In this document: positions 712 to 22,654 of the stretch, one piece after another
Layout: every line of letters begins with the position of its first letter
Numbering within the stretch: position 1 is the stretch's first letter
NCBI GenBank assembly: GCA_913031625.1
Contig: CAJWGB010000032.1
Location: 1 to 34,926, forward strand
Length of the DNA stretch: 34,926 bases
From: an uncultured Planctomycetaceae bacterium
Lineage (GTDB): Bacteria; Planctomycetota; Planctomycetia; Planctomycetales; Planctomycetaceae
Direction: 5' to 3'
The notes under the pieces: model-generated
Seen by the model: the letters and a program-made list of their open reading frames with translations, nothing else
What the model was told of the DNA's origin: nothing
Database searches by the model: none
Program-made: the position numbers and the translations under genes

Positions 712-2814
712 ATGCGAAATCAGCCGTTTCATGACGAACTGGCGCCTGTTGGGAATGCACAGGTGGACTCGGGAAAGCGAATCCCCGGGCTGACTCTGCT
801 GTTTGCCGCTGGATTCTTTGTTGTCCTGAGTCGTCTGGCATGGGTGCAAAACAGTCTTCAGGACGGGTATCTCAAGGCATTGGATCGGACCACGGTCACC
901 TATGAGTCGATTCCTGCTCGAAATGGTCGCATCGTCGGCGAGAATGGGACTGTCTATGCGGAGGACGTGGACGAATTCACTATTCAGGTTCATTACCGAT
1001 GGTTGCAGTCGCCTCTTCATGACAGCTGGCTCAGGCGCGAAGTGCGGCGCAGGCTGACGCGAGCGGAACGCCGTGATGAGTCACTCGTCGCAGAATGCGA
1101 GGCGGAGATTCGGGCTGACCAGGTCAGACTCTGGGAGCAACTGAGCCAACTGACAGGACTGTCACCTCAGGAACTCGCTCAACGCAGAAGCAGCATTCAG
1201 GACCGAGTTGCTCAGATTGCCAGTGCCGTCAATGCAAAGCACTTTCAGGAGCCGACGCGCGAAACTCTGCACGAGGATGGTCTGCTGGTTCGAATTGCAT
1301 CTGACATCCGGTCAGCACTGACGACTGAGCCCAAACGGACTACGGACGAGCGAATCGTCGTTCTGGAAGAGGAGTCATGGCACGACGTGGTGGTCGACTG
1401 CGGTTTTGAAATACGAGCAGTCATCGAGGAACAGCCCCACCGGTTTCCCGGAGTGCGAGTTCGGTCTCAGTATCGCCGTCATTACCCGCAGGGACATGTC
1501 GCCGCACATCTTATTGGCGCCCGGACGTTGGTGCGTGAAGAAGAAGTTCCTGACTCCACCCGCAAAGAAGGGGAACAGATCGGGCGATTCGGGCTTGAGA
1601 AATCATGGAACGCCCACTTGCGCTGCCGGCCGGGCCGACGAAAAGTTGTGCGCAATCGTCGTCTTGAGATCGTTGAATCAACGGTCATCGAGAGGGAGTC
1701 TGCCGGCAGGGACCTGGTGGTGACGCTTGACTATGGCCTGCAGAAGTTTGCCGAGAATCTCCTGGATGAAGCTGTTGGTCCGAATGTCCCCGGTTACCTT
1801 GCCGGGGATGCGGAGGATGCTTCTGATTGTCCTCAGGCTCTGGGGGGAGCCGTTGTTGTGATGGAGTGCTCTACGGGTAGACTGGTTGTTGGCGCATCTG
1901 CTCCTTCCTATTCGCTGGGACTGTTTGTGCACAGTCGCCAGGCAGACTGGGACGCCTTGAACGCTGATTCTCGGAGTCCTCAGACGAATCGCATTCTGAC
2001 CGGGACAACTCCCGGCCGCCTGATGACGCCTGTTACCGCGATCGCGGCGATCAACGCTGGTGTCCTTGATCCGGACTACGTGTTTCAGTGTTCGGGCTTT
2101 CTCGGCGAATCTCAGGAACACGCCTGTTCCGTAGTGCAGGGGCACGGAGGCGTGCGGTTGCGGGAAGCGTTGGCAGGCGGCTGTCGCATTTACTTTCAAA
2201 ATGCAGCGTTGCAGACTGGTTCCAGGCGGATGGTCAGTTGGAAGTCGCGCTTTGGATTTGGATCCATCACAGGATCTGATTTGCCGGGCGAGGCGTCGTG
2301 CGCTGATCCTGCGATCGCCAGTTCGCGGGCGCAAAGCCAACTGCTGGCAAACGCTGTCGGACGAAGAATGAAGGCGACGCCCCTTCAGCTTGCCAGAATG
2401 ATGGCGGCCATCGCGAATGGCGGAGTTTTGGTAACGCCGCATGTTGGCAGTCATTCCGGCCTGATAGATGAACAGTCGGCTCCGGCCGAGCTCGTACGAT
2501 CGAGAATCCCGGAGCTCGGGCATGCTGAATCCAATGCAGTCGCCGAGGGACTACGGGCGGGGGCGGGCAGTACTGGAGGTGCTGTTTACAAATGGCTACA
2601 TCCTGAGAAGATATCGGTTGCTGCGATCGCGGCTACAATTGACAGCACATCGGTACATGTTGACGTACCGACGGGCCTTGTGGCTGGGTATTTCCCTGCG
2701 GATGCGCCTCGCTATTCATTTGCGGCTGTGCTCGAACACGGAGGCGAAGGTCACCGCCATGTGGCCCCACTGGTTGCTCAGATCATCAAACGCATGTATC
2801 CAGAATCCCCATGA
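712..2814 (+). CDS. Catalytically degenerate class B penicillin-binding-protein homologue
   Basis: A 700-residue protein with the architecture of a class B PBP (PBP2/FtsI type): one N-terminal membrane segment (about residues 24-45), a dimerisation-like region containing an ARNGRIVGENGTVYAED stretch that resembles the RGxIxDRNG box, and a C-terminal transpeptidase fold recognisable from W..RFGFG..TGSDLPGEASC. All three penicillin-binding motifs are replaced. The SxxK position reads RLMT (436-439, in PGRLMTPVT), the SxN position reads GCR (490-492), and the KTG position reads IAA (639-641). By family knowledge such a protein cannot cross-link peptidoglycan by the serine mechanism, so a structural or regulatory role is inferred. 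The ATG at 712 is preferred because it precedes the membrane segment, although the frame is open upstream to 487. The stop overlaps the next start (ATGA). Confidence 0.85.
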   Translation: MRNQPFHDELAPVGNAQVDSGKRIPGLTLLFAAGFFVVLSRLAWVQNSLQDGYLKALDRTTVTYESIPARNGRIVGENGTVYAEDVDEFTIQVHYRWLQSPLHDSWLRREVRRRLTRAERRDESLVAECEAEIRADQVRLWEQLSQLTGLSPQELAQRRSSIQDRVAQIASAVNAKHFQEPTRETLHEDGLLVRIASDIRSALTTEPKRTTDERIVVLEEESWHDVVVDCGFEIRAVIEEQPHRFPGVRVRSQYRRHYPQGHVAAHLIGARTLVREEEVPDSTRKEGEQIGRFGLEKSWNAHLRCRPGRRKVVRNRRLEIVESTVIERESAGRDLVVTLDYGLQKFAENLLDEAVGPNVPGYLAGDAEDASDCPQALGGAVVVMECSTGRLVVGASAPSYSLGLFVHSRQADWDALNADSRSPQTNRILTGTTPGRLMTPVTAIAAINAGVLDPDYVFQCSGFLGESQEHACSVVQGHGGVRLREALAGGCRIYFQNAALQTGSRRMVSWKSRFGFGSITGSDLPGEASCADPAIASSRAQSQLLANAVGRRMKATPLQLARMMAAIANGGVLVTPHVGSHSGLIDEQSAPAELVRSRIPELGHAESNAVAEGLRAGAGSTGGAVYKWLHPEKISVAAIAATIDSTSVHVDVPTGLVAGYFPADAPRYSFAAVLEHGGEGHRHVAPLVAQIIKRMYPESP

Positions 2815-9668: not shown

Positions 9669-12600
9669 ATGTCCGAAACTGAAATCGTCATCCGTGGTGC
9701 GCGCGAGCACAATCTTCGCAATGTTTCTCTGACTCTGCCGCGCAATAAACTGATCGTCATGACCGGGGTCAGTGGCTCCGGAAAGAGCAGCCTGGCTTTT
9801 GACACACTCTATGCTGAAGGGCAGCGACGGTACGTCGAATCGCTGTCGACCTATGCGCGACAGTTCCTCGGGCAATTGCCGAAGCCCAATGTGGATTCAA
9901 TTTCAGGTCTCGCGCCCTCCATCTCAATTCAGCAGAAGTCGACCAGCCGAAATCCTCGCAGCACCGTCGGAACGATCACAGAGATCTTCGACTACCTCCG
10001 TGTCCTCTTTGCCCGGGTCGGACAGGGGTATTGCTACGTCTCCGGCAAGCCCATTCAGGCTCAGTCCAGTGACTCAATCATCGACTCGATTGCAAGCATG
10101 CCGGAGGGAACGCGATATTCAATCCTGGCACCCCTTGTACAAAATCAGAAAGGCGAGTTCAGGGACCTCTTTGAAGACCTTCTAAAACGCGGTTTCCTGC
10201 GAGCTCGTGTGGATGGGGAAGTGATCTCACTGAATGAAGATCCCGGACTCCGGCGTCATCATAAACACAATATTGAAGTTGTCGTTGACCGTCTTGCTGT
10301 CGGACCTGGGTCCAGAAGTCGGCTGGCAGAAGCTGTGGAGCAGGCGCTCAAGCTGGCCGACGGACGTTTGATCTGTGCAGTGCAGCACGATGCTCCACCG
10401 GATAATTCGGCAAACAGCGGTCAGACGGACGACCGACTTTACAGTGCCAATTATGCGTGCGCAGAAAGCGGGATGAGCTATGAGCCACCGACGCCACAGC
10501 TGTTCAGCTTTAACAGTCCGCTGGGGATGTGCATGGAGTGCAATGGTCTCGGGATGCGGCATGGTTTTCCATCGGGAGCGATCGTCGTCGATGAGAAGAA
10601 GTCGATCCGCAATGGTGCCACTTTATTTCTGCCATCACTGCAGAAGATCGGTCGGTGGCCACGGCACATTCTAAAAGGTGCGGCGGAAGCAATTGAGAAG
10701 ATCGTGGGGATGGAGCACGAGTCTCTGTTGAAACTCAAATGGAAGGATCTGCCAGCCGAAGCGAAGAAGCTGTGGCTGCACGGGACCGGTGACAAACACA
10801 TTACCTTCAGCTGGAGAACACGCGGTGGTGTGTACAAGCACGGGGGTACGTGGGAAGGCTGGGTCAATCGGCTGCTGGATAATTATCGCAACGCAAAGAA
10901 CCCCATGTTGCGGCGGTCGATGGAGAAGCACCTTGAGGTTTTGCCGTGTCAGGCCTGCGAGGGTGAGCGATTAAATCGGCAGGCTCGTAATGTGCGGCTG
11001 ACGACGACCAGTCGCCGATTCGCGAGGCGCGGCCTGCCCAAACAGCTGAGTCTTCCTCAGGTGTGTGCACTCAGTATTCAGGAAGCGTCGGAGTTCTTCG
11101 ACTCACTGAAGCTTGGGGAGACGCAGCAGATCATCGCTGAGGAGGCATTGAAGGAAATCCGCGGAAGGCTTGGTTTCCTGCTGCAGTGCGGTCTGCACTA
11201 CCTGACGCTGCATCGATCTGCTCCGACATTGTCCGGGGGAGAGTCCCAGCGGATTCGACTTGCCGGACAGATCGGATGCGGACTTGTCGGCGTCGTCTAC
11301 ATTCTGGACGAACCCTCCATCGGGCTGCATCCGCGCGACAATACGATGCTGCTCGAAAGCCTGCAGCATCTTCGTGACCAGGGCAATACGGTCATTGTCG
11401 TCGAGCATGATGAAGAAACCATGCGAGCCGCAGACCATGTCGTTGACTTTGGACCTGGACCGGGTGTGCGAGGCGGCGAACTGGTCGTGGAAGGGACGGT
11501 CAAAGATGTCCTCAAGAGCAAACGGAGTCTGACGGGGCAGTACCTGAGTGGCACAAAGAAAATTGATGTGCCTTCTCATCGACGCGGACAGCCGGAATCC
11601 AGCGGGAAACCTAAGAAGAAGCGGACCGCAAAGAAGAAGAAGGCGGCTGCGGCCTCGCTCTGTGGAACCAAAGATGTCATCACAGTCAAAGAACCGCAGC
11701 ACAACAACCTCAAAGGCGTAGACGTCAGTTTCCCGCTCGGTCGCTTCGTGTGTGTGACGGGTGTCAGCGGCAGTGGAAAGAGTAGCCTGACGAGCGACAT
11801 TCTCTGGCAGGTCCTGAACCGCGATGTAAACCGTGGTAAGGGGGAGCCTGGGAAACACGGCCGTGTCAATGGCCTGACGAAGATCGACAAGGCGATCGAT
11901 ATCGATCAGTCGCCGATTGGACGCACTCCTCGAAGTAATCCGGCAACGTACGTCAAAGTCTTTGACGAGATTCGTAAGCTTTTTACATCTTTGCCGCAGT
12001 CGAAAATGCGCGGTTATAAACCGGGGCGATTCAGTTTCAATGTCGCTGGTGGACGCTGTGAAGCATGTGAGGGGCACGGGGCGACTAAACTGGAAATGGA
12101 CTTTCTGGCCGACATCTGGGTTCCGTGTGATGTCTGTGAAGGAAGACGTTTCAGTCATGAAACGCTGGAAGTGAAGTACCGCGATCACAGTATCGCCGAC
12201 ATCCTGAAGATGGAGATTCGGGATGCGATTCAGGTGTTTGAGAACGTTCCAAAGATCAATCGCCTGCTGCAGACGCTGATTGATGTGGGTCTGGACTACA
12301 TGCAGCTGGGACAACCCTCTCCAACATTGTCAGGCGGGGAAGCTCAGCGTATCAAACTGGCTCGAGAACTGGGAAAGAGATCCACCGGGCAAACACTTTA
12401 TCTGCTGGATGAGCCGACGACAGGGCTGCACTTTGCGGATGTTCACAAGCTGCTGGAAGTGCTGCATGGATTTGTGGAGCAGGGCAACACGGTCATTGTT
12501 GTGGAACACAATCTTGACGTGATCAAAACAGCAGACTGGGTGATCGACATGGGACCGGAGGGCGGAGCCGGCGGAGGGATGGTCGTGGTTCAGGGGACTC

Positions 12601-15600
12601 CCGAAGAAGTCGCTGCGTGCAAAGAGTCTCACACTGGTAGAGCACTCTGCGATGTGCTGCCCGGCCTGAAGCCTCGACGGAAGTCAAACAGGTCCGGCAA
12701 TGGTAAGTCGAAGTCAGATCCATTTGCATTCAGCAAACGGATTCAGATCAAGGGGGCGGCTCAGCACAATCTGCAACAGGTGGACGTGAATGTGCCTCGT
12801 GGGGAGATGAGTGTTTTCTGTGGGCCCAGTGGCAGCGGTAAGACATCTCTGGCGATGGACACGCTGTATGCGGAGGGGCAGCGCCGATACGTCGAAAGTC
12901 TCTCAGCCTATGCGCGGCAGTTCCTCGGCCAGATGCCGAAGCCAAAAGTGGAGAGTATTCAGGGCTTGAGTCCGGCCATTGCCATTGAGCAGAAAACAGT
13001 CGGTGCGACTCCTCGTTCTACCGTAGGAACTGTCACTGAGATCTACGACTACCTGCGTGTGCTCTACGCACGACTCGGAACTGTCCACTGCCCAACCTGT
13101 GGCGAACCGGCCCGGAAGCAAACCACTGATGAAATCGTGGATGCGATTCTGAAACTCCCGGCAAAGTCTCGATTGATGCTGCTGGCGCCCGTGGAACTGG
13201 ATCGCCAGATTCCATTTGCCACCGTATTTGAACGCCTTCGCAGGAATGGATTTGTTCGAGTGCGAATCGACGACAAGACATACTCGCTCGAGGACCCGCC
13301 GGAACTCGATCACCGTCGCCGGCATGAAGTGGAAGTGGTTGTCGATCGCTGCATTGTCGATAAGAAGCAGCGCGGCCGAATTACGGATTCCACTGAGGCA
13401 GCTCTGGATGTTGGCAAGGGCGTCATTCGGGTGGTGGTGGCTGAAGATGGTGTCGAGGAGTCAGAGTGGGAGGACCATGTCTTCAGTCTTCATCTGTCGT
13501 GTCTGGACTGCGGCTACAGTTATGAACATCCAACGCCTCAGCAATTCAGCTTCAACAGTCCGCTGGGATGGTGCTGGTCGTGCGAGGGCCTTGGCACTGA
13601 GTTTGGCGCCAATCAGTCACTGTTGATCACCAGTCCGGAGCGGTCACTTCTTGAGGGCGCTATTGGGGCATTGCCCGACCCGAACAGGGACGCAGTATTT
13701 CGAATGCTGCTGGAGGCCATCAGCAAAGAATTTGGCATTCCTCTGGATCAGCCATGGTATCTCCTGGATGAAAAACAGCAGCGACTGCTGCTGTATGGCG
13801 ATGCGGACCGCTGGGTGCTTGTCCAGAATCCTCAGACTGCAGATGGCGACCTCTGTGCACCGATCAGATTTCGGTTTCGGGGGCTCTATCCAACGATCGA
13901 AATGGCGGGGCGGCTGTCGTATTCTCATCGCCGTTCCCTGATGGAAATGGCGGGCGAAAAGGATTGCAGTGTTTGCGGCGGCAGTCGGTTGCAGGAAGTG
14001 ACGGCGGCGGTGAAGTTGAAGAAGGTGACACTGCCTCAACTCTGCCGCATGCCACTGCATCGTGCTTTGGAGTTCCTGAAACGCCTGCGACTGACGAAGA
14101 CGCAGAAGCAGATTGCCGGAGATCTGTTGCAGGAGTCGATTCATCGACTGACGTTCCTTGTTGATGTCGGCCTGGATTATCTGACGATGGATCGTTCCAT
14201 GCCGACTCTGTCAGGCGGCGAGTCTCAGCGTATTCGTCTGGCAGGGCAGGTGGGCCGTTCGCTCACTGGTGTGCTCTACGTACTGGATGAACCTACGATT
14301 GGCCTTCATCCGCGAGACAATGGGCGTTTGCTTGGTGCTCTGCGGCGCCTTCGGGATCTTGGAAACACAGTGCTGCTCGTCGAACACGATCGAGAAGTGC
14401 TTGAAGCTGCGGATCGGCTGTATGACTTTGGGCCGGGTGCCGGGCGTCTGGGGGGGAGTGTTGTTGCTGAGGGCACGCCAAAGCAGTTGGGACGCAAGGC
14501 GAAGAAGTCTTTGACGGGAGGCTACCTGAGTGGCCTGCAGGGCATTCCGATTCCGGAACAGCGTCGTATGGAGAGTGCTCGGCGACCACTGCCCGACATG
14601 GCTGAGAAGCGGCCGCGATTGACACTGCACGGGGCCACTCAGAACAATTTGCGGAATGTCGATTTGAGCATTCCGGTGGGGGTGCTTACGTGCATCACCG
14701 GAGTGAGCGGTAGTGGCAAGAGCAGCCTGGTGATGAATACGCTGGCTCGTGCAGTGTCGCGAAAACTAAATCTGACGACGGATGCTCCAGGTCCGCATCG
14801 TGACCTGGTGGGGATTGAGCATCTGTCCAAGATTGTGGTGGTGGACCAGAACCCCATTGGCAATACGCCGGCTTCAAACCCCGGAACATACACGGGCGTC
14901 TTTGAGCATATCCGGACTCTGTTCGCCAAAATGCCGGATTCGAAAGTGCGAGGTTACGGTCCCGGGCGTTTCAGTTTTAACCGCTCCGGTGGCCGCTGCG
15001 ACGACTGCGAAGGAATGGGGCAGCAGAAGATTGAAATGCATTTTCTGCCCGACGTCTGGGTCGAGTGCAATACCTGTCGCGGTAAGAGGTACAACGCCGA
15101 AACACTCAGTGTGAAGTTCAATGACTATTCCATTGCTGATGTGCTGGAGATGCCGATTGAGAAGGCACTGGAAGTGTTCTCGAACGTGCCAAAGATTCGA
15201 GCACCGCTGGCGACACTCAACGCGATCGGCCTTGGGTACCTGACCATTGGGCAGTCGGCACCGACACTCTCAGGTGGCGAAGCTCAACGAATCAAGCTGG
15301 CTGCAGAGCTTGCGAAACCCAACAAGGGCCAGACGCTGTATCTGCTGGACGAGCCAACTACGGGGCTGCATTTCGATGACATCGCGAAGCTGTTGGCAGT
15401 GCTCAACAGTCTGGTCGAGCAGGGCAATTCCGTCGTCGTGATTGAGCACAATCTGGACGTGATTAAGACAGCGGACTGGATCATTGATCTTGGCCCGGAA
15501 GCAGGCGCGGGCGGTGGGCATATTGTCGTGGAAGGAACCCCGGAAGATGTTGTTGAGCATGCCAGTGCCAATGGAAAAGCGAAGCCCCACCGGTCATGGA

Positions 15601-16631
15601 CGGGGGAAATGCTTGCTCCGGTTCTGAAGGAAGCGAAAGCCGGAACAATCGAAGTCTTCGATGTTGAGGAGGTTGCAAGGAAACGCGCTGATGACGTGAG
15701 TGTTGATCAACTCGGCAAGGCTGCCAAACTTCCCTGGGAAGTTGACGGTCAGCGATGGCACACGCAGGAGTGTCTCAGCCATGATGGCCAGCGTTGTCGC
15801 TGGGACGGTGAGGCGCTTCAATTCGTGGTGGACTTCTTCGCGGCAGACGAGCGGCTTTCACCCGTCAACTGGAATCATCGTTCCACCATTGAGGTCAAAT
15901 CCAAAGGCGGGCTGGGCTGGCTGCTGCATGCCCGCAGCGGGCATGAATGGCTGCTTACGCTCTGCTTCAGGGTCAGGAAGAACACCTTCGAGCAGAAGTC
16001 TCTGTCAGCAGCCTTGAATCTGACGCCAATTGATGATGTCGAAGAGATTCACTACTACAGCCAGTCACCACGCGTAAGGGTTCGCAACCTGAAGACTCCC
16101 TGGCAGGAAGTCACCATCAAGATCTGGAAGAAGGAAGAAGTTGACAATGATGCCTTCCGGGAGTTTCTGCAGACTGCTGCAGATGGTCACCTTTCACAGG
16201 CGTTGAAGGAGAAAGCGAATCCGGACGACCTGACACCGTGGAAACAACTGGGGCGGAAGTGGCACCTGATGAAAAAGGGCCTGCCTAAACGCCCGGACTG
16301 GACGTTTGCCACACTCGAAAAGGCACTGCCTGTTGTTGAACTGGCGTTGGCGGAGTCAAAGGCAGACTACGGTATTCGCAGTAAGATCAACTGGAAGTCT
16401 TCTGGCGGTCAACCAACCGGTGAACTGCATACCAAACGGAAGGATGGCGTTGACCTCGTTGTGTTTGTTCCAAAAGGGACTGTCACGATCGGTGCCGTGG
16501 CGGAGTTTGGCATGGAGCAGGAAGTCAAACCTGCAAAGGGGGAACAGGATGCGGTTCGAATTCGTTTTCGCAGGCCCGATCAGGTGTCGAAGAAGTTCGT
16601 TCTGTGGCTCACTGAAACGGTATACGGCTGA
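9669..16631 (+). CDS. uvrA: Double-length UvrA excinuclease subunit (two tandem UvrA units plus a novel C-terminal extension)
   Basis: UvrA is the damage-recognition ATPase of UvrABC nucleotide excision repair. Usual UvrA is about 940 residues; this one has 2,320. Unit 1 (about 1-1000) has Walker A at 33-41 (GVSGSGKSS), [12 protein letters not shown] near 521, Walker [14 protein letters not shown], a second Walker A near 698, the C-terminal zinc module CEACEGHG...CDVCEGRR (about 797-828) and [12 protein letters not shown] near 887. Unit 2 (about 1030-1980) repeats all of these: GPSGSGKTS at 1052, signature near 1514, Walker A near 1678, zinc module near 1777-1808, signature near 1867. UvrA normally dimerises, so this resembles a single-chain dimer. 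The unit 1 first zinc finger is incomplete (C264-x2-S267), whereas the unit 2 finger is intact (C1278, C1281, C1302, C1305). Residues 2000-2320 are an unrecognised extension. Double-length UvrA is, to my knowledge, also found in Chlamydiae. Confidence 0.95.
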
Positions 16632-18461: not shown

Positions 18462-18589
18462 CCCGATGAATGGGCCTGAATTCAGGAGAAGCCTGGTCCG
18501 TTGCGGCTTCAGGACCGTTGTTGTCACGGTTCAATCCTGATGAAACAGCAGTTGTCTCTTATTCGTCAATACCTAAACAGGCTGCGACT

Positions 18590-20092
18590 ATGTCAAAGTG
18601 TGATATCGATATCGAATTCGATCAGCAGGACCGAACCTATTACGGCGGCCAGTCAGTGACCGGCACCGTTCATATTCAGGTCAACAAAGATATTACCTGT
18701 AACGGGATTGTGTTGACCAGTTACTGGCGCACTCACGGTTACGGCAATCGGGATCAGGGGGACAAGATTCGGTATGACCTTGTGGAGGCTACCAAACTGG
18801 AGGCCGGACAGCGTCTGTCTGTTCCCTTTGAAATAGACGCTTCCTGCTGGCCGCTGAGTTATCACGGCCACCATATTAATCTTGACCATTACGTTCACGT
18901 GGCCGTCGATGTTCCATGGGCGATTGACCCCAAACAGGAAGAAGAGTATCTCCTGTTGCCCGGAACGCCTCCCCCTGAATTTGATGGGGCTCGTCATGAG
19001 GTGATCCAGATCGAAAAACGGGCCCCGACGGATACGGGAACCATAGCCAAGATCTGTATTGCCGGGGCCATGTTGGCCATGGGATTTGTGCTGATTCCAG
19101 CTGCCTTTATTTTTGTTCCGATCATCATTGTCTTTGTCGGTTTCGTTCTGGGATGGCAATGGCTGATTGCCAGTCGCGTCGGCAAGGTTGAATTGCAGGT
19201 TCCTCATGTTGTGGTTGGTGCTGGCGAGGAGATCCCTTTGGGGATCAGGTTTACTCCAAAGAAAACTTTTCGCATCAATGAAATCAACGCCAAACTGACG
19301 GCTATCGAGTCCGCAACTTCGGGGAGTGGAACGAATTCAACGACTCGACGTCACACGATTCACGAAGAACGCTTCGTCCTGCTGGACGCGGGAATGCTTC
19401 AGGGTGGCGTGGAAGTAAATGAGGAAGTGATGATTCCAATGCCTGACTCAAATGCATGGAGCCTTTCCGAGTCCGACAACAAGATTACCTGGGTCCTCGA
19501 AACGCGGATTGACATTCCGTTGTTTCCGGACTGGAAGGAATCAACAACGCTGCAATTTGTTCCACGGAAGTTTGTGGATGATACGATCCCTTCAGCGGAA
19601 CTGCATGAAGAGGTTTCGGGGGACGACGATTATTCGGCGCCACCTCCGCCTCCCGCGGCATCTGTCCCGGTTGAAACCGCATGGCAGGATGACGACTACA
19701 GTGAGCCGACTTCCGCCGCATATGAGCAGTCGGCAGACAATGGGCCGATCATTGCATTGATGGATCAAATCCTCGCCGCCAATCGTTTTGGCAACGCACG
19801 TGAGTCGCTCACCGAACAGTCAGCAGGGCGACCGTTTGATCTTGCGATTCAGGTTGAGCGAGTTTCACGTACATTTGGATACAAGGGGAGCTCTGGTGAC
19901 GCTTATGAATCCGGTCGCACAGTCACCGGCACAATTGCGGGAACAGAGCACGAAGTCGAACTGTTCACCCGCGATGAAAGCAACGATACTGTGGATGAGC
20001 TGCAGTCAGGATCCATATGGGAGACACAGGCCAGGGTTACATCATGGGATTCGCTGTTCAACCGGCTGAACCTTGAAGAACTGGATGGCTGA
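18590..20092 (+). CDS. Membrane protein with split arrestin-like fold
   Basis: A 500-residue protein; the ATG at 18590 is chosen because the domain begins at once (MSKCDIDIEFDQQDR), while the frame is open upstream to 18470 without domain content. Residues 5-130 resemble the arrestin N-terminal beta-sandwich (also Spo0M-like): YYGGQSVTGTVHIQVN, then a lipid- or cargo-facing strand set, LEAGQRLSVPFEI, SYHGHHINLDHYVHVAVDVPWAID. Residues about 150-190 form one or two hydrophobic helices rich in Ile, Val and Phe. Residues 195-345 look like the second arrestin sandwich (VVVGAGEEIPLGIRFTP...). A low-complexity acidic/proline linker with two DDDYS motifs follows (about 345-380), then a C-terminal region ending LNLEELDG. 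The arrestin assignment is from pattern only. A trafficking or scaffold role is speculation. Confidence 0.65.
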   Translation: MSKCDIDIEFDQQDRTYYGGQSVTGTVHIQVNKDITCNGIVLTSYWRTHGYGNRDQGDKIRYDLVEATKLEAGQRLSVPFEIDASCWPLSYHGHHINLDHYVHVAVDVPWAIDPKQEEEYLLLPGTPPPEFDGARHEVIQIEKRAPTDTGTIAKICIAGAMLAMGFVLIPAAFIFVPIIIVFVGFVLGWQWLIASRVGKVELQVPHVVVGAGEEIPLGIRFTPKKTFRINEINAKLTAIESATSGSGTNSTTRRHTIHEERFVLLDAGMLQGGVEVNEEVMIPMPDSNAWSLSESDNKITWVLETRIDIPLFPDWKESTTLQFVPRKFVDDTIPSAELHEEVSGDDDYSAPPPPPAASVPVETAWQDDDYSEPTSAAYEQSADNGPIIALMDQILAANRFGNARESLTEQSAGRPFDLAIQVERVSRTFGYKGSSGDAYESGRTVTGTIAGTEHEVELFTRDESNDTVDELQSGSIWETQARVTSWDSLFNRLNLEELDG

Positions 20093-20915: not shown

Positions 20916-20990
20916 GCCGGACATCACACCTGTACGTCGATTCCGGTGTGGATTCCGCGAATCGAATTCAACGTACAGGTGTGGCCCGGC
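20916..20990 (+). repeat. Long msd-type inverted repeat
   Basis: The core is a perfect 13-bp inverted repeat, CACACCTGTACGT (20925-20937) with ACGTACAGGTGTG (20971-20983). It is extended outward across a small internal loop by GCCGG (20916-20920) with CCGGC (20986-20990). It continues inward with CGATTC (20938-20943) pairing GAATCG (20959-20964) and CGG (20944-20946) pairing CCG (20955-20957), leaving an 8-nt apical loop and a 6-nt bulge. Such a rod is the expected template for the DNA hairpin of an msDNA. Confidence 0.85.
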
Positions 20991-21032
20991 TTGAGTTGAG
21001 CGACCCAGTCCTGAGAGCCTTTCGAAGGGAAT

Positions 21033-21049
21033 CTGCAGCCGCCACCCGA
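21033..21049 (+). repeat. Retron a2 arm
   Basis: Reads CTGCAG followed directly by CCGCCACCCGA; complementary to a1 at 20819-20837. It lies 31 bases upstream of the RT start codon, the usual a2-RT arrangement. Confidence 0.82.
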
Positions 21050-21079
21050 AATCTCGACCACATTGGTGCATGCCACCAC

Positions 21080-22654
21080 ATGACTACGCGCCAGGAAATC
21101 TACGACCGCATCCGCGAATCATCACGGGACGAAGTCATCCTTGAAGAGATGATTCGCCTGGGATTCTGGTCGCGTGACACGGATAAGCCTGAAGATCCTG
21201 CGGAAGACATAAGACGGCAGGGCGAACTGGAACGCGAACAGCGGCGGCTTACACAGGAAGCCGCTCGACTCAGGAACATCGAAGCGCTTCACGAGGAAGC
21301 TCGCAGGAAACGCATGGAGGAGTTTCGTCGCCGGAGACAGGAGACAAAAGAACGACGTGAACAGGAACGCGTTCAGCGCGCTGCTGCATGGCAGGAATCA
21401 AAACAGAAGGAGATCGTCTATCTTGGAGACTCAGTTTCCACGACTCTCAATCAGCAGACGACAGATGAAGATCGCCTTCGTTCAAACGCGCTGCCAAACC
21501 TGCAGTCCATCGTCGAAGTTGCCGAGGCGATGGAGATTTCAGTGGGCGAGTTGAGATGGCTTGCGTTCCATCGCAGGACAGCCGAGATCACGCATTACCG
21601 GAAATTTGCTGTGCCTAAGAAGACGGGCGGTGTTCGTGAGATCTCTGCGCCCAAGCCACGCCTCAAGCGAATTCAGCACTGGATTCTGCATCACATTCTT
21701 GATCAGGTGGAGGTGCATGATGCGGCTCATGGATTTCGACGTGATCGATCCATTGTGACCAATGCCCAACAACATACATCGTCGGGTGTGGTCGTGAATG
21801 TCGACATCCAGGACTTCTTTCCCACAGTGACGTTTAGACGGATTCGAGGGGTATTCAAAAGCCTGGGATACTCCGGCCAGATCTCCACGGTTTTTGCACT
21901 GTTGTGCAGTGAACCGGAACGCCGTGAAGTCGCACTGGATGGACGCACATTTCATGTGGCGAGAACCGAGCGAAGACTTCCGCAGGGAGCTCCTACAAGT
22001 CCCGCCCTGACAAATGTCATCTGCCGTGGCCTTGATGCTCGACTGCACACACTCAGTCAGAAGAATGGATTCACGTACACGCGTTATGCAGACGATATGA
22101 CGTTTTCGGCATCCGGCGAAGCAACGCAGAATGTTGGTCGGGTATTGCGGCAGGTAAAGCATGCTGTGAGCCAGGAGAGTTTTCAGCTGCATCCGGACAA
22201 GACAAGGATTCAGCGTGCGTCTCGGCGGCAGGAAGTGACCGGCCTCACTGTTAACTCGGGCGTCAGCGTTCCACGGGAGACTCTTCGAAGATTCCGCGCA
22301 GTTCTGTTTCAGATTGATCGTGACGGACCCGGCGGTAAACGCTGGGGAGCGTCGCAGAACGTGATGGTTTCCATCGAAGGATTCGCCAATTTTGTGGCGA
22401 TGGTGGATCCCGAGCGAGGAGCAAAGCTGCAGCAGACTGTTGCCGAGCTTCAAGATCGTCACGGTCGAGGACGCGGGACGGTGACCGTTCGTCAGAGGTG
22501 GACTTTTCAGCGGCCGGAACCGGTCAGCAGTCCGCCCGGCCCTTCAGAAACAGCTGTTTCCAATCCGTTGCAGGCAGCAGCGTCACCTCCGGGGGCAGAC
22601 CAATCTGCACCGAAACCGAGAAAGCCATGGTGGATGTGGTGGAAGTTCTGGTAG
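21080..22654 (+). CDS. Retron reverse transcriptase with coiled-coil N-terminal extension
   Basis: A 524-residue RT (ATG at 21080; the frame is open back to a GTG at 20948, but that start would lie inside the msd stem). Retron hallmarks are all present: NAQQH (228-232, the NAxxH motif), the catalytic Asp in VDIQDFFP (242-248), LPQGAPTSPALTN (from 300), the active site YADD (336-339), and VTG (386-388), which retron RTs use to recognise their own msr. The RT core covers about 140-470. Residues 1-140 are an extra region: MTTRQEIYDRIRESSRDEVILEEMIRLGFW, then a strongly charged Arg/Glu coiled coil (about 42-112) and an EIVYLGDSVSTTLN segment. The C-terminus is Pro-rich and ends KPWWMWWKFW. Retrons usually act in anti-phage defence with a toxin partner. 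None is recognised here, so the extensions are candidate effector or partner-binding parts. Confidence 0.93.
   Translation: MTTRQEIYDRIRESSRDEVILEEMIRLGFWSRDTDKPEDPAEDIRRQGELEREQRRLTQEAARLRNIEALHEEARRKRMEEFRRRRQETKERREQERVQRAAAWQESKQKEIVYLGDSVSTTLNQQTTDEDRLRSNALPNLQSIVEVAEAMEISVGELRWLAFHRRTAEITHYRKFAVPKKTGGVREISAPKPRLKRIQHWILHHILDQVEVHDAAHGFRRDRSIVTNAQQHTSSGVVVNVDIQDFFPTVTFRRIRGVFKSLGYSGQISTVFALLCSEPERREVALDGRTFHVARTERRLPQGAPTSPALTNVICRGLDARLHTLSQKNGFTYTRYADDMTFSASGEATQNVGRVLRQVKHAVSQESFQLHPDKTRIQRASRRQEVTGLTVNSGVSVPRETLRRFRAVLFQIDRDGPGGKRWGASQNVMVSIEGFANFVAMVDPERGAKLQQTVAELQDRHGRGRGTVTVRQRWTFQRPEPVSSPPGPSETAVSNPLQAAASPPGADQSAPKPRKPWWMWWKFW

Follow-up and report, generated by a model that had tools for sequence, protein, structure and literature searches.

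What remains of a penicillin-binding protein (PBP) that has lost all three of its catalytic motifs, and why would such a protein be kept? The question is raised by a gene near the start of a 34,926-nucleotide contig from an uncultured Planctomycetaceae bacterium, the whole of which is referred to here as the window. The gene (Table 1) translates into 700 amino acids with zero internal stops, the stop codon being counted within its end coordinate. Its frame stays open upstream of the ATG at 712 (TTG at 487), and homology with relatives begins at that ATG. Two Pfam domains score above cut-off in the protein, PBP_dimer (PF03717, 58.6 bits, residues 68-321) and Transpeptidase (PF00905, 113.6 bits, residues 379-692), and no other domain does, GT51 included. 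Hydropathy shows one peak only, near residues 24-46, which indicates a single N-terminal anchor. The structural marks of a class B PBP are thus all found: the PBP_dimer pedestal, the transpeptidase fold, one N-terminal anchor and no GT51. The top NCBIfam model is pbp2_mrdA (TIGR03423), at 271.8 bits against a curated cut-off of 455, which may miss the whole family. PBP2/MrdA enzymes are the nearest solved structures by sequence (E = 4.5e-37), and the protein branches inside the PBP2 clade of its genus (eight rows, support 99), apart from FtsI. As the PBP2 orthologue of its genome, the window gene encodes what has become a pseudo-transpeptidase: fold and descent place it among the class B PBPs, but its motifs do not qualify it as a penicilloyl serine transferase.

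Table 1. Coordinates of the window pbp2 gene and of its domains and former catalytic sites.
Feature	Position in window	Strand	Residues and basis
PBP2/MrdA-type class B penicillin-binding protein, predicted catalytically dead	712..2814	+	700 aa; translation, Pfam, NCBIfam, alignments
N-terminal membrane anchor region	790..882	+	hydropathy peak at residues 24-46; predicted helix 20-57
Pedestal / PBP_dimer domain	892..1701	+	residues 61-330; strongly conserved columns kept 21/22
Transpeptidase domain	1840..2811	+	residues 377-700; fold kept, accelerated
SxxK position	2017..2028	+	residues 436-439 = R-L-M-T; alignment
SxN position	2179..2187	+	residues 490-492 = G-C-R; alignment
KTG position	2626..2634	+	residues 639-641 = I-A-A, on predicted strand 637-643
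Conserved H-A-W-F block adjoining active site	2671..2682	+	here T-G-L-V, residues 654-657

The window protein was aligned with more than 50 orthologues and with E. coli PBP2 and FtsI. RLMT falls under S-x-x-K, GCR under S-C-N and IAA under K-[T/S]-G, with both flanks well aligned at each site, and the protein has none of the three signatures of an active class B PBP (Ser-x-x-Lys, Ser-x-Asn/Asp, and Lys-Thr/Ser-Gly on strand beta3). The two other reading frames around each of the three sites contain no displaced motif, which excludes a pair of compensating frameshifts. On the evidence of these residues, the catalytic death of the window PBP2 is close to certain. With the acyl-enzyme serine, the general-base lysine, SxN and the KTG strand gone, acylation on stem peptides or beta-lactams would be impossible, a loss of chemistry that we deduce from established class B PBP chemistry and from residue losses at the sequence level.

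An AlphaFold2 model of the window protein, built on a 32-sequence alignment, has a mean pLDDT of 85.8 and a pTM of 0.81. In this model, the membrane helix and the pedestal are in place, as are a helix beginning at the position of the lost serine (435-448) and the strand that once carried KTG. VIA-align superposes it on Yersinia PBP2 (Z 44.6, 2.8 Å, 510 residues) and on H. pylori PBP2 as solved in complex with MreC (Z 44.5, 3.7 Å, 514 residues), and fold Z values are 42-45 across PBP2 and PBP3 structures. The scaffold is predicted to be whole, with the chemistry alone missing. The sequence-only reading had proposed just such a preserved fold around a dead transpeptidase site, and its account of the protein holds up: the alignment places the three substitutions exactly where it had them, the landmarks RFGFG and TGSDLPGE and one N-terminal transmembrane helix are present, the frame is intact, the non-catalytic half is retained, the structural comparison to PBP2 that it proposed gives the Z values above, and the intact Ser-x-x-Lys that might have lain elsewhere does not occur in the other frames around the motif sites.

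We then asked how widespread this state is. PBP2 was read from 153 of 170 genomes of the same family, comprising 142 intact genes, 3 with all motifs degraded, 2 that lack only the lysine, 2 frame-shifted and 4 cut by contig ends. Two genomes (G054 and G016) were excluded from the counts because their genes are motif-less at KTG merely through a frame shift, be it real or due to assembly. Among the 147 readable genes, 142 have all three motifs intact. The three genomes in which all are degraded are that of the window (G000, RLMT/GCR/IAA), G013 (DLFK/RCQ/RIG) and G027 (SLFQ/SCH/RGG). Within the genus of the window, all seven other members carry a single PBP2 with intact motifs, and the substitutions of the window gene are common to no relative. 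A shared planctomycete or genus trait is ruled out by this census. In two genomes of one other genus, G060 (L033) and G161 (L249), the SxxK lysine is replaced by threonine, with the serine, SxN and KTG kept; these genes may be at the beginning of the same loss, or may encode an active enzyme that uses a different base.

G027 and G060 each have a congener with an intact PBP2 gene (G160 and G004, respectively), and in the tree the three dead copies are widely separated. The intact same-genus relatives and the scattered positions indicate that the losses are independent. G013 is a closed, single-contig genome, in which the dead pbp2 sits in the native mreB-mreC-pbp2 locus as a 723-aa open frame and no second PBP2 was found; a single-sequence structure model of this copy reaches a pLDDT of 40. 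FtsI is intact in both G013 and G027. The replacements differ in each of the three dead copies, which have no new conserved motif in common. The loss in the window is rare and recent, but it recurs in the family. These counts speak against the link to the planctomycete wall or division in general that the sequence-only reading drew, and the check that it proposed for substitutions shared across related species finds none. An intact paralogue, for which it also proposed to look, does exist as FtsI (G000:C73; STFK / SSN / KTGT), the sole other PF00905 protein in the window genome, but this is a division-type protein and not a second PBP2. Seven other genomes, G003, G059 and G096 (genus g4), G009 (g10), and G055, G168 and G169 (g55), have one PF00905 domain each, except for G168 with none, and their genera seem to have lost FtsI.

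Is the window gene maintained, or is it decaying? The main rival to maintenance is that PBP2 became dispensable after leaving the mre operon and that the gene is a recent pseudogene, losing function from the active site outwards. We regard this as rather unlikely, and it has several observations on its side. The terminal branch of the window PBP2 is long (1.47 versus 0.28 in its sister). On a fixed tree, the branch lengths for pedestal and transpeptidase domain are 0.77 and 1.71 in the window gene, and 0.31 and 0.23 in the intact sister. The pedestal has thus changed at about 2.5 times the rate seen in the sister, which points to some relaxation gene-wide. The operon position has been lost, and mreB, ftsI and ftsW are non-essential in P. 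limnophila (PMC6952346).

On the other side stands the pattern of what has been kept. We examined 90 columns of at least 95% conservation among the 142 intact orthologues. The window protein keeps 21 of 22 such columns in the pedestal and 32 of 41 in the parts of the transpeptidase domain outside the active site, but 6 of 21 at the active site (pedestal versus active site, P = 5e-6, Fisher's exact test). The loss in the window PBP2 is domain-selective. The ratio of the transpeptidase to the pedestal branch is the highest of 32 rows for the window gene and the second highest for the dead G013 copy. Pedestal columns are likewise kept in the other dead copies (22/22 in G027 and 21/22 in G013), in which the active site and the remainder of the transpeptidase domain differ only weakly in retention. 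The absence of any stop or frameshift in 700 codons also argues against decay. A neutral walk that starts from a congener's gene accumulates about 18 stops on average by 50% amino-acid identity (minimum 10 in 40 runs), and about 6.6 by just 80% identity, whereas the window gene has none. Codon-position GC is normal (0.68/0.48/0.57, the same as in the genome's own FtsI), and G013 has a PBP2 in the same dead state inside the native operon.

The window genome is overall somewhat diverged, yet its PBP2 stands out. Its identity with congeners is 67-69% for FtsI and about 63-66% for RodA, compared with 72-76% and 72-75% for G042 against the others; for PBP2, the corresponding values are 42-46% and 57-64%. 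Taken together, these data indicate that selection has acted on the gene along the greater part of its branch. Since no second genome carries the dead allele of the window, selection after the loss is inferred rather than directly measured.

A second alternative, which we consider improbable, is that an unassembled part of the genome holds an intact PBP2, of which the window gene would be a diverged duplicate serving in regulation. The metagenome-assembled genome (MAG) is 96% complete in 444 contigs, so that about 4% is missing, and the window gene stands away from the ancestral mre locus; both would accommodate a hidden copy. No second PBP2 was found in the MAG. The ancestral site itself is assembled: mreBCD lie on contig C203 without pbp2, the region downstream of mreD yielded no pbp2 remnant, and a convergent gene resembling a 2-oxo-acid dehydrogenase E2 subunit follows. 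In addition, every congener has a single PBP2, and the closed G013 genome has the dead one as its only PBP2.

The relocation deserves a description of its own. In six of the seven congeners pbp2 follows mreB, mreC and mreD, whereas the window pbp2 stands alone among unrelated genes and so lies outside the mreBCD operon, to which the dead gene of G013 still belongs; membership of that operon is usual for a Rod component and not strictly required. The pbp2 of G061 (L203, G061:C20) has likewise moved away from mreBCD, with its motifs intact, to a different place, and the differing flanks rule out a relocation shared with the window. Origin of the contig from an unrelated organism is unlikely, because its GC content (0.56) is in line with the 0.55-0.57 of other contigs in the bin and each genome of the genus encodes good relatives of a nearby 1130-aa protein. 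The window also holds several genes of separate interest. One (9669-16631, + strand) encodes a protein of 2320 aa in which the UvrA interaction and UvrA DNA-binding domains are each matched twice, an apparent tandem (double) UvrA. A beta-lactamase-fold gene (PF00144; 16636-17856, - strand) lies near one for a 540-aa protein with weak arrestin / Spo0M-like matches (18470-20092, + strand). Another gene (20948-22654, + strand) encodes an RVT_1 reverse transcriptase (PADLOC RT_XIII, 619 bits), likely that of a type XIII retron.

That the old active-site cleft has gained a new binding or catalytic function is a most improbable third alternative: the cleft residues are replaced and not deleted and the transpeptidase fold is kept, but the three dead copies have differing replacements with no common new motif, and the accelerated branch looks relaxed, not re-specialised.

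We therefore return to maintenance without catalysis and ask what the protein could still do. The partners of a Rod complex are present in the window genome. MreB, MreC and MreD are all encoded, and the RodA-type and FtsW-type SEDS proteins keep their catalytic Asp (R-T-D in RodA). There are also five Mur-ligase-type proteins and one LysM-YkuD L,D-transpeptidase with its cysteine motif; a class A PBP was not found in this genome. In other bacteria, MreC and the PBP2 pedestal govern RodA polymerisation (PMC6207328), and PBP2 switches RodA allosterically by opening (PMC10257715). Dead class B PBPs can also serve their complexes: B. subtilis can divide with PBP2B S309A as long as PBP3 provides the catalysis (PMC5656894), and the SpoVD S311A of C. 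difficile can sustain asymmetric division, but only together with its SEDS partner (PMC12713402). Given these precedents and a retained pedestal and helix without the crosslinking residues, we read the window protein as a natural pseudo-transpeptidase that activates RodA.

With somewhat better than even confidence, we propose that the window PBP2 is kept as a membrane-anchored activator and scaffold of RodA. Its membrane helix and pedestal would dock it to RodA and MreC, and the docked dead protein would allosterically license glycan polymerisation by RodA. Crosslinks would then come from the intact FtsI and/or the LysM-YkuD L,D-transpeptidase. The independent loss of the same site in two other genera suggests that elongasome transpeptidation may be dispensable in the family while the activator role is not. 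A tentative extension, which we hold to be somewhat less probable than not, is that PBP2 of Planctomycetaceae repeatedly loses its transpeptidase and yet stays an obligate RodA activator, FtsI or an L,D-transpeptidase doing all the crosslinking of RodA glycan. Planctopirus limnophila tolerates the loss of mreB, ftsI or ftsW (PMC6952346) and remains viable, which makes for a permissive background. By analogy, the elongasome may matter little here, which would count against the activator reading.

Whether crosslinking or SEDS switching is the essential job of a class B PBP has so far been separated by point mutants. A natural PBP2 without its catalytic site but with its pedestal, together with two independent parallels, one of them in the native operon of a closed genome, would be an evolutionary experiment on that question. 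In the open literature we found no previous report of class B PBPs that had lost their activity in nature, which is not proof of absence. The results suggest that the RodA-activating job can outlive the enzyme activity of PBP2. If this is true, PBP2-directed beta-lactams would have no target in the elongation machinery of these bacteria.

Compared with known systems, the window protein is most like PBP2/MrdA of the Rod complex (E. coli, Yersinia, T. thermophilus and H. pylori), with which it shares orthology and the order of membrane helix, pedestal and transpeptidase fold, in a genome that also has RodA and MreBCD. It differs from these enzymes in having no SxxK, SxN or KTG, in lying outside the mre operon and in scoring below the pbp2_mrdA cut-off. 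The genome's own FtsI (PBP3) belongs to the same superfamily and is about 25-30% identical to it, but falls in another clade, keeps intact motifs and evolves at a near-normal rate, as its identity with relatives shows. Like the engineered PBP2B S309A and SpoVD S311A, which still support their SEDS partner or complex (PMC5656894, PMC12713402), the window PBP2 would have no transpeptidase chemistry. Those are laboratory point mutants of division and sporulation PBPs, whereas the loss described here is natural, extends to all the motifs and concerns PBP2.
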